A stretch of 64,000 bases of DNA from Rhodospirillales bacterium. Its GTDB lineage: Bacteria > Pseudomonadota > Alphaproteobacteria > Rhodospirillales > UBA2165. The position numbers were made by a program, and so were the translations under genes. The DNA lies in NCBI GenBank assembly GCA_012960465.1, contig DUBF01000164.1:1-64000 (forward strand). Reading direction: 5' to 3'. Shown here piece by piece: positions 9,565-64,000 of the stretch. The notes under the pieces were generated by a model. The model did no database searches and had not been told where the DNA came from. It worked only from the letters and a program-made list of their open reading frames with translations. The stretch's first letter is position 1. Each line of letters begins with the position of its first letter.

Positions 9565-9715
9565 CAATATTATTTTCAATGAAGCTTTATTCAAGCATTG
9601 TTTCAAATTAATCACAAAATTTTTTATAGGTTCATAATGAACTAATTTCCCTTTTATCCTTGCAATAATTGCTAAAAACGCATAGACAATCGGCTTTAAA
9701 TCCACACATGGACTT

Positions 9716-9749
9716 AGCGGTGATAGTGCCAATTCACTATGTAATCGCT
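9716..9749 (+). promoter_or_regulatory. Hairpin in the rpsB 5' leader, possible S2 autoregulatory element
   Basis: Two stacked stems can form: AGCGGT with ATCGCT (one G-U pair) and ATAGTG with CACTAT, separated by a 1x3 internal loop and capped by CCAATT. It lies 61 bases before the rpsB start. Feedback on rpsB-tsf by S2 through the mRNA leader is known in gammaproteobacteria; extending that here is inference. Confidence 0.35.
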
Positions 9750-9810
9750 CCGGTGTTTTGAATAGCTCGAAATAGCGTCCATGGAGGTCTAACCGGAATA
9801 GGAAAAAAAT

Positions 9811-10662
9811 ATGGCTTTACCAACATTTACTATGCGCCAAATGCTTGAAGCTGGCGTTCATTTCGGGCACGTAACCCGGCGCTGGGATCCAAAGATGGAA
9901 GAATTTATCTTCGGAACCCGGCAAGGTGTTCACATTCTTGATCTTCAGCAAACGGTCCCGATGTTGTATCGGGCAATGCAGGCCGTCAACGAGGTCGTTG
10001 CGGCAGGCGGTCGCGTTTTGTGGGTCGGTACAAAACGTCAGGCCGGGCAACCAGTTGCGGAAGCATCAAAACGTTGCGGGCAATATTATGTTAATCATCG
10101 CTGGCTCGGTGGAATGATGACAAATTGGAAAACTATTTCTAATTCAATTCGTCGTTTAAAGACACTTGAAGAACAGTTGAGTGAAAGTAATGAGGAAATA
10201 ACAGGTCTAACCAAAAAGGAAATGCTTAAATTAACAAGAGAACATGAAAAATTGGACCGTTCATTAGGTGGCATTAAAGATATGGGTGGATTGCCTGATA
10301 TAGTATTTGTACTTGATACTAATAAGGAGAGTATTGCGGTAGCGGAAGCTAATAAACTAGGGATCCCGGTGATTGGAATACTTGACAGTAATTCAAATCC
10401 AAGTGGGATTGACTATCCTATTCCTGGTAATGATGATTCTATACGGGCAATAAATTTTTATTGCGATATGATTGCTGGTTCTGTTTTGTCTGGTATACAA
10501 ACTGAAATGGCTGTTTCCGGAGCGGATATAGGTGAATTAGAAGTTGCGCCTACTGACGATCTTCAAGGAGAAATGGCTGCTGAAGTTTCGACGGAAGTCA
10601 TCGCTACTAAGGATACTACAGACTTGCCGGCCAAAGAAACAGAGCAGGAAGTAACGTCATAA
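9811..10662 (+). CDS. rpsB: 30S ribosomal protein S2
   Basis: 283 residues. S2 binds the 30S subunit at the head-body junction with bS1. The family start [14 protein letters not shown] and the conserved stretches [12 protein letters not shown] and LPDIVFVLD are clear. A C-terminal acidic tail of about 45 residues after the S2 fold is typical of alphaproteobacterial S2. It begins a forward block that runs to lpxB, with tsf 37 bases downstream. GC content is visibly higher in the first 300 bases than in flanking DNA, as expected for a highly expressed gene. Confidence 0.97.
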
Positions 10663-61979: not shown

Positions 61980-62016
61980 AAAAAAGGCTCGCTGAATTAT
62001 AGCGAGCCCTTTTTTT
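61980..62016. terminator. Bidirectional rho-independent terminator between rpoZ and the PrdB-like gene
   Basis: GGCTCGCT and AGCGAGCC form a perfect 8-base stem around GAATTAT. A run of six A precedes it and C plus seven T follows it, so it can end transcription from both rpoZ (forward) and the convergent selenoprotein gene (reverse). Confidence 0.92.
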
Positions 62017-62030
62017 ACGATATATTTTCT

Positions 62031-63257
62031 TCAAACGTGTTTAAGCATCGCGTTAGGAACAAAGTTTGTACGGCCTATCAATTGAAGTGTTTTGCTCTCA
62101 TGATCAAGACAAATAGCACGTATTTTAATTAATAACTTTCCCGCTAGTGTTTCTCCATAAAACCAATTTTCTAACTGTCCGTCAGAGATGTTTGTTGGAC
62201 GAGCCATCGCAGATTGAAAGTAAAAATGTTTAAGATCATCGGCTGTTAATTTAAGAGCCCTACTAATCGGCTGGTCCGATAAAAAGCTCTCTATTTGAGG
62301 ATCTTCAACAAAACTTACTAGAATATCTACAATTTCTTCAGGCGAGTGGGACGTCAGACCATCTAATCTTCGCCCACCGGACGACGCGATGGACTCCTGA
62401 TACCATGGGTGTAACAAAACTATCTCCTGTTTTAAATCAAGTGCTAGATTTTGAATATCGGTTAAATCATTTCTTGGTTTGGCCAAGTTGACCGGGCAGG
62501 TCCACCCCTCATTTTCTTCTTCACTGACATTATGATCTGCTGGCGAAGAGACAAAGTCCTCAATTAACGGACCATCATTTCGCTCTAATAGTTTGAGAAC
62601 ATCGAATAAAACACGTTGTTGTAGATCGGGCTTATTTGGCGGCCCAAATGGCCGCCCTAGTTCGAAGGGCACGAATAGAGCGCGTGGAGGGCGCATTCCC
62701 TCAGTATGCTTACGGACTAAACTGATTTGGGTTGTTGGTATTCCCTCACGTTCTAAATAATGAGCTAGCCCGCCAACGGCGCGCGTGCATTGAGGTCAAA
62801 CTCCAGCTAAAACCGCTCCGTCAACTCCATCTGCTTTTAAAAGCTGTGCAAGATCCTTCGCAACCGCTTCATGAGCCATCGGTGGGGTAGCCCCCATAAA
62901 TGCATAGTGGTAGCCTGCTACTTCACCGATTTTACCATCGGCTTTTAGTTCATTTAAGCGATCAATAGGGAACATGACATTCAAATCTTGTTGAAATCCG
63001 GTACGATCAAAGTTTGTTGATACATGGCTCATAATAAGATCATTCATATTCGCATCGTTTGGAATAATGCGGTATTCCCCAATACCTGGGGTAAATACTT
63101 TATCTTCTCTTCTATGTAATCCAGCAGTGGTTATGATCGAAATTTTACGCTTCGATAAAGGAGGGCCCTCAACGCAAGGCGTGTTTTGATAGTTTGGTAA
63201 ATCTTGGTTTACAATCATATCTCGCTGTGTTTCCGGCATGTCGGATAAATATACCAT
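62031..63257 (-). CDS. PrdB/GrdB-family selenoprotein (in-frame TGA = Sec154) with C-terminal extension
   Basis: Two same-frame open segments (63257-62799 and 62795-62031) are separated only by TGA at 62798-62796. Read through as selenocysteine, the product has 408 residues. Residues 1-228 follow the D-proline reductase PrdB / glycine reductase GrdB family: TTAGLHRREDKVF (43-55), MSHVSTNFDR, NVMFPIDRL (93-101), GYHYAFMG (115-122), AGVUPQCTR (151-159) and VPFELGRPFGPPNKPD. The Sec sits at the family's catalytic position in a UxxC motif and at PrdB-like distance (153 residues) from the start. A GU-loop hairpin lies just 3' of the TGA. Residues from about 229 form an extension of some 180 residues that I do not recognise. 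PrdA/GrdA/GrdC partners are not in the window, so the reductase substrate is unknown. AAGGAAAA precedes the ATG. Genes here freely end in TGA, so TGA is not reassigned to Trp. Confidence 0.85.
62768..62784 (-). promoter_or_regulatory. Putative bacterial SECIS hairpin in the PrdB-like gene
   Basis: Reading the reverse strand, GCGCGCC and GGCGGGC pair (four pairs, a G-G mismatch, two more pairs) around the loop GUU. The apical GU lies at nucleotides 19-20 after the UGA, matching the geometry needed by SelB in bacterial selenoprotein mRNAs such as E. coli fdhF. Confidence 0.7.
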
Positions 63258-63358: not shown

Positions 63359-64000
63359 TTAGCTCTCTTTCCACCAGCAATCACGCATATAAGCGGTAAA
63401 TTCTTGTGGATTAATTTTTGTAGATATAGAAAAGGATGCCATTAATGACCCTTGCTCTATATCGACTTCTAAAACATCTGTAAATCTATTCCAAAAATTA
63501 AAAAATCCAGATACAAAAGATAATTCAACAATCTGACTTTCATTATAATATACTTTTAAATTCTTTAGAGCTTCATGATGTTGCGGCGGTTTTCCAGGGG
63601 AGCCTTGATATAATTTATCGGTCATTACTTCCGCCCATCTCATCGCAGCTTTTTCTTCGACAGTGAACATTTTGGAATTCATATAATCCCCAGAAACAGC
63701 TTGGATTAGTTCTTCGTTAAAATTTAACGCTCGACCGAGCGTTTCGTTATGACCAGTTCAATATGCACAGCCATTTAGAGTTGAAGTTTTTAAAATTACG
63801 AGGCACTTTGTTTTAACCGGCAGGTTTTCAGTTATTTCTTCTCTGAGGCTTGAAACAATAAATCCAAATAAAATCTGCATCAGCTTTGGAGCGTGAGAGC
63901 CAACACGAACCGCGTTTGCCACCCGTCCAAATAGTATTTTTGAATGGGTAAAAATAGTATTTTGTTCTGTTGTAGACTCTTGATCGTTAGGTATAGAAAT
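63359..64000 (-). CDS. AhpD/carboxymuconolactone decarboxylase-family selenoprotein (CxxU), 5' end outside window
   Basis: The frame is open from the window edge to 63359 except for TGA at 63760-63758; 213 residues are visible. Around the TGA the protein reads LNGCAYUTGHNETLG, which is the AhpD active-site motif CxxC-xx-H with selenocysteine in place of the second Cys. The flanking helices (GRVANAVRVGSHAPKLMQ, KCLVILKTSTLNG and MFTVEEKAAMRWAEVMTD) also match the family. A perfect hairpin with a GU loop follows the TGA. AhpD-type proteins reduce peroxiredoxins or act as peroxidase-like disulfide reductases; the actual partner is unknown. It lies 101 bases upstream of the PrdB-like gene on the same strand, consistent with one operon. 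The ATG at 63682 downstream of the TGA is internal to the domain. Confidence 0.87.
63726..63743 (-). promoter_or_regulatory. Putative bacterial SECIS hairpin in the AhpD-like gene
   Basis: AACGCTCG and CGAGCGTT are exact complements around GT, so the RNA can form a seven-pair stem capped by GGUC. The GU lies at nucleotides 23-24 after the UGA. Stem length, GU loop and spacing all fit a bacterial SECIS element; a perfect 18-base hairpin is otherwise unusual inside an AT-rich coding region. Confidence 0.85.

Follow-up and report, generated by a model that had tools for sequence, protein, structure and literature searches.

A probable selenoprotein related to PrdB and GrdB in a Rhodospirillales genome with no detected PrdA, GrdE or GrdA

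Proline and glycine reduction both require a pyruvoyl subunit, PrdA or GrdE (PF09338). A selenoprotein family under the name of PrdB was listed from marine data in 2005 and again in 2008 (PMC1088965, PMC2398784), and therefore a selenocysteine (Sec) gene of this kind is, as such, already known. In these reports, "proline reductase PrdB" accounts for 42 genes from the Sargasso Sea (PMC1088965), the same-named family for 235 GOS genes with the pfam07355 domain and a UxxC motif (PMC2398784) and, in a further survey, PrdB for 6.4% of marine selenoprotein genes (PMC9402790). Metagenome surveys thus place it with the marine selenoproteins of highest abundance (PMC2398784, PMC9402790), which is puzzling for aerobes. 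The protein analyzed here shares with this marine family the Pfam domain, the UxxC motif and Sec, as compared at the level of domain and motif. The accessible text of the marine papers names proline reductase and does not report the missing PrdA, the long clade or the AhpD-like CxxU partner described below.

The window, that is, the whole stretch of DNA that was analyzed, comprises 64,000 nucleotides of a Rhodospirillales bacterium (assembly GCA_012960465.1, contig DUBF01000164.1, positions 1 to 64,000). The gene under study lies close to its end:

62031..63257, minus strand: the long PrdB-like gene for the selenoprotein, comprising 408 codons and the final TGA stop
62796–62798, minus strand: in-frame TGA, Sec at residue 154 in the motif GV-U-PQCTR, from homologue comparison
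62787..62789, minus strand: Cys157, presumed resolving Cys of UxxC, invariant in both homologue alignments
62764..62788, minus strand: SECIS hairpin, from its fold, the bSECIS rules, codon conservation and a compensatory pair
61986..62008, no strand: hairpin resembling a terminator, with runs of T on either strand, just past the PrdB-like gene, from a pattern scan

Recoding of the in-frame TGA

With TGA read as Sec, positions 63257–62034 of the minus strand encode 408 amino acids, and the frame then ends at an ordinary TGA stop (62031–62033). The initial annotation had described a frame continuous around a single TGA, with GV-TGA-PQCTR across it, and this is borne out by a translation containing exactly one internal TGA; its coordinates were correct as well, only the minus strand having been omitted. 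Without recoding, a plain ORF finder returns two ORFs of 153 and 221 amino acids, just as had been predicted for a standard gene finder. This pair of ORFs is what speaks for a pseudogene, for an error in the sequence, or for two genes split by a true stop. Against such a view, the TGA is found at exactly the Sec154 codon in 113 of 116 homologues (copies from class genomes plus GTDB loci, some loci being in both sets, with 107 distinct TGA copies), both halves of the gene are conserved, a SECIS is present, and the remaining three homologues carry Cys at exactly this codon. The homologues, which come from Alpha-, Beta-, Gamma- and Deltaproteobacteria, Chloroflexota and Nitrospinota, thus have Sec or Cys at the TGA position rather than random stops. 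Because of them we consider the broken-gene view already refuted and leave it practically no chance; as judged from these comparisons, the PrdB-like gene is a real gene and not a broken frame.

The distribution of the gene follows that of the Sec machinery. Full-length homologues were found in 33 of the 385 class genomes, 30 of which have TGA at the same codon, and a scan of GTDB genomes yielded 80 loci, all with TGA at the Sec154 codon. Of the 30 genomes carrying a TGA copy, 29 had selA above the cut-off, as against none of the three carrying a Cys copy (Fisher p 7e-4). Conversely, the TGA gene is carried by about half of the sampled Sec-using class genomes (29 of 56 with selA) vs. 1 of the 329 others (p 6e-27), and it may partly explain why these bacteria retain Sec machinery. 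The one genome with a TGA copy and no detected selA (G264, copy at G264:C98:1572-2759, loci L051 and L087) holds that copy on a contig of only 6 kb, which may be misbinned.

A search of the source genome for selA, selB, selC and selD recovered all four, each over its cut-off, and the lack of selA, selB or selC envisaged as a counter-argument in the initial annotation is not seen. selB and selA are adjacent, and the gene for tRNA-Sec lies on the same contig (77.5 bits). As a separate observation, this tRNA gene (G000:C123:6803-6893) is about 8.5 kb away from selB and not nested inside it, nesting having been described for some alphaproteobacteria (PMC8124441). selD (G000:C109:49958-50887) itself contains an in-frame TGA, which suggests that SelD is probably a selenoprotein here too.

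The hairpin spans nucleotides +8 to +32 after the UGA, with a predicted MFE of −12.6 kcal/mol, an upper stem of 4 bp and a GUU apical loop at +19 to +21 (62777–62775), 18 nt after the UGA; its inner stem begins at +12, in line with the hairpin with GU in the loop that had been placed 12 bases past the TGA. Published bSECIS rules specify a loop of 3–9 nt, a stem of 4–16 bp, G in the first two loop positions, a distance of 16–37 nt after the UGA and an MFE of −7.5 or lower (PMC13188914). The hairpin falls within every one of these limits. The Rfam search gave no SECIS match at this position. The fold is exceptional among synonymous-codon shuffles (z −2.9, p 0.01) and unremarkable among plain dinucleotide shuffles (z −0.24). 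Since a short G+C-rich hairpin is common under the dinucleotide null, the case for the SECIS rests on comparative tests. In these, the stem codon for Thr at +4 is ACG in 101 of 107 distinct sequences and that for Ala at +6 is GCC in 102 of 106, with 36 and 42, respectively, expected from the genes' own codon use, and these are the two strongest codon biases among all conserved columns. Moreover, the stem pair +13/+27 is C-G in 88 sequences and U-A in 15, a compensatory exchange given here in raw counts uncorrected for kinship. The three Cys homologues have no comparable hairpin signal.

We regard the comparative evidence for the SECIS and for Sec as decisive. Together, the 113 TGA homologues and the sel genes support the Sec read-through proposed initially, and the UGA at 62796–62798 is almost certainly read as Sec by SelB, aided by the hairpin just downstream. 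A reading of TGA as Trp was set aside: TGA is confined to one codon, Cys occupies that codon in relatives devoid of selA, and ordinary TGA stops end other genes, the PrdB-like gene included.

Relation to PrdB and GrdB

The protein was divided into two domains:

62529..63164, minus strand: N-terminal alpha/beta (Rossmann-like) domain, residues 32–243, from PF07355, BLASTP and AlphaFold2
62037..62456, minus strand: C-terminal all-helical domain, residues 268–407, from AlphaFold2; absent from PrdB

Similarity to PrdB and GrdB, together with the UxxC motif, had been noted at the outset and was recovered by alignment. In BLASTP, Peptoclostridium PrdB was 36% identical across 220 residues, and the alignment placed Sec on Sec and the Cys of UxxC on its counterpart. 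PF07355, the GrdB profile, matched residues 34–151 at 40.2 bits, above its gathering score of 22, over profile positions 223–345 of 347 only. The homology to PrdB is real. Membership in PrdB or GrdB, on the other hand, fails, given the low PrdB score, a separate clade, the extra C-terminal domain, the UxxCT motif and the missing PrdA, GrdE and GrdA. In particular, the score against the PrdB equivalog of NCBIfam, TIGR04483, was 106.4 bits, far below its cut-off of 300. PrdB, the 26-kDa subunit of D-proline reductase, has about 240 residues and UxxCH (UGTCH), whereas the protein described here has 408 residues, UxxCT (more fully, UPxCT) and the helical C-terminal domain; compared with GrdB, the N-terminal two thirds of the profile are missing. 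In a tree, the long forms, Sec and Cys alike, are split from PrdB and the short forms by a 100/100 branch, the tree containing long branches and a divergent copy, L175, also falling on the long-form side. In L175 (G034:C16), a second and possibly damaged copy of the long gene on a very long branch, only residues 17–194 align. Tandem second copies of the long gene were also seen at L105, L107, L120, L135, L148 and L150, and most of them again end at TGA where the first copy does.

Short alphaproteobacterial PrdB-like proteins, annotated as "glycine/sarcosine/betaine reductase selenoprotein B family protein", resemble the long form in the N-terminal domain and in having Sec or Cys at the same place. 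They differ in length (about 300 residues), in motif (UPVCH or UPLDH) and in lying on the opposite side of the 100/100 branch. Several deserve mention in their own right. The short genes L176, L179, L184 and L186 carry Sec in UPLDH, a motif lacking the usual resolving Cys, and L178 has the Cys form CPLDH. The source genome holds a short paralogue with Cys in place of Sec (CPVCH; L093:2197-3090, G000:C92), oriented divergently to two genes of the YeeE/YedE-like family, which has been linked with the transport of sulfur or selenium.

Homology to PrdB with aligned Sec is also what favors a true subunit of D-proline or glycine reductase working with an unrecognized partner. We searched for such partners: PF09338, covering the PrdA/GrdE pyruvoyl subunit, was not found in the source genome and nine relatives, the Peptoclostridium control giving E 6e-204, and GrdA (PF04723) was not found in the source genome, its positive control having worked. 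Combined with the separate clade and the PrdB score of 106 against a cut-off of 300 in an aerobic genome, these results make a reductase subunit very improbable, and we take that view as already largely refuted. COX1 is present in the source genome, which is consistent with aerobic respiration and with the aerobic alphaproteobacterial setting assumed in the initial annotation, and the suggestion made there that the substrate is probably a different one stands, PrdA/GrdE and GrdA being absent. As the carriers lack the needed partner and form their own clade, the usual "proline reductase" label is probably wrong, and hence misleading. Within the literature surveyed, the distinct long clade and the tested absence of PrdA/GrdE and GrdA appear to be new; so do the Sec/Cys switch that tracks selA, the proximity to sel genes and the CxxU partner.

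The AlphaFold2 model has a pLDDT of 90.3 over the whole protein, with Sec at the start of helix 155–170, and the C-terminal domain folded alone reaches 90.4. The C-terminal domain had no Pfam match, and in Foldseek neither the whole model nor this domain alone had a hit under E 0.001. VIA-align gave a best Z of 8.0 for the N-terminal domain, against generic Rossmann-like folds, and of 4.5 for the C-terminal domain among the solved structures examined. Nor was any meaningful relative detected among PDB sequences when the protein, its profile or PrdB served as the query. Since the structural matches are weak or generic, we draw no function from the fold. Besides the UxxC cysteine, R63, H78, D84 and E169 are invariant in both homologue alignments, and the first three are common to this protein and PrdB.

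Gene neighborhood and proposed function

Immediately upstream lies a second selenoprotein gene, which extends past the end of the window:

63359..64000, continuing to contig position 64009, minus strand: AhpD-like (CMD) selenoprotein gene, PF02627, one TGA at CAYU, 216 amino acids
63758..63760, minus strand: in-frame TGA of this gene, Sec84 of CxxU; TGA is found there in CMD genes at 13 loci
63726..63743, minus strand: candidate SECIS hairpin of this gene with a GGUC loop, from the predicted fold; the same hairpin occurs in related loci

The gap between the AhpD-like and the PrdB-like gene is 101 bp on the same strand, and the two are likely in one operon. A second AhpD-like gene with CNYU, divergent from the first, lies just beyond the window (contig 64182–64841; L022:3182-3841). 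Each of the two divergent genes has one in-frame TGA at CxxU and a hairpin with a GGUC-type loop, and three Sec genes, the PrdB-like and the two AhpD-like ones, are thus found within about 2.8 kb. Among the CMD matches near PrdB-like genes, 22 of 25 have TGA at CxxU, across 13 loci (the source locus included) from Alpha- and Betaproteobacteria, Nitrospinota and one unassigned bacterium. Selenoprotein pairs of the Prx-like/AhpD-like and Prx/SelW kinds are known from earlier work (PMC2398784); the accessible literature contained no PrdB-like/AhpD-like pair.

The invariant UxxC, together with the invariant R63, H78, D84 and E169, points to a redox role, and the best reading of the sequence data is a thiol/selenol-dependent reductase, which the CxxU partner may recharge. 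We hypothesize that Sec154, placed where a helix of the alpha/beta domain begins, would act as a nucleophile on a small substrate already bearing its own leaving or electrophilic group; with a substrate activated in this manner, no Schiff base to a pyruvoyl subunit would be needed. Cys157 would then form an Se–S bond, releasing the product, and a thiol donor would reset the enzyme. At the source locus, the donor could be the neighboring AhpD-like CxxU selenoprotein, a step proposed by analogy with the described pair of GrdA, which has CxxU, and GrdB, which has UxxC (PMC13188914). Gene order and motif are what suggest that the AhpD-like protein may play this part. As about 90% of the PrdB-like loci have no adjacent CMD gene, this protein cannot serve as the sole donor, and the proposed partnership may prove mistaken. 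Taken as a whole, a genuine selenoprotein, distantly related to PrdB and GrdB, without a pyruvoyl subunit and acting by the mechanism above, has in our estimate a probability of roughly 50%. A bolder version, in which a selenol relay with the AhpD-like neighbor would drive an undescribed, pyruvoyl-free reductive cleavage in aerobes and the marine "proline reductase" selenoprotein would be this very enzyme, is put forward tentatively, as one that we would sooner expect to fall than to hold. The protein encoded next door is a candidate electron donor for the true reaction.

Two other functions have to be weighed against such a reductase. The UxxC motif and the CxxU AhpD-like neighbors would also suit a thiol peroxidase or general antioxidant paired with AhpD-like proteins in the manner of AhpC with AhpD. 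The best structural neighbors of the Sec domain, however, are Rossmann-like and not thioredoxin folds, and R63, H78 and D84 being common to PrdB suggests binding of a specific small molecule; we hold a peroxidase to be rather unlikely. The same low standing is given to an enzyme of selenium handling, for instance by reducing or liberating a selenium compound for use by SelD, a role that the wider neighborhood brings to mind. The PrdB-like gene often adjoins selD, selA or selB: in 12 of 29 genomes, selA is no more than 20 kb away (binomial p ~2e-13 at 2% chance), an Ndh-SelD gene stands beside it in 22 of 110 loci, and a GST gene is also a recurrent neighbor. Yet Cys forms exist in three genomes without selA, in the source genome, neither selABC nor selD shares a contig with the PrdB-like gene, and a selenoprotein may be encoded near sel genes as a mere client, without having a role in selenium metabolism. 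The other neighbors vary (selD, GST, CoA transferase, SDR, coxL-like) and accordingly indicate no single pathway, and the thiol/selenol-dependent reductase is retained as the preferred reading.

Two further features were observed on the contig. Upstream of the Sec cluster, L022:4170-7752 encodes three tandem MFS (Bcr/CflA-like) transporters, which are kept in several related Rhodospirillaceae loci. Elsewhere, positions 9703–9811 match the rpsB sRNA family of Rfam (RF01815, 46.6 bits).
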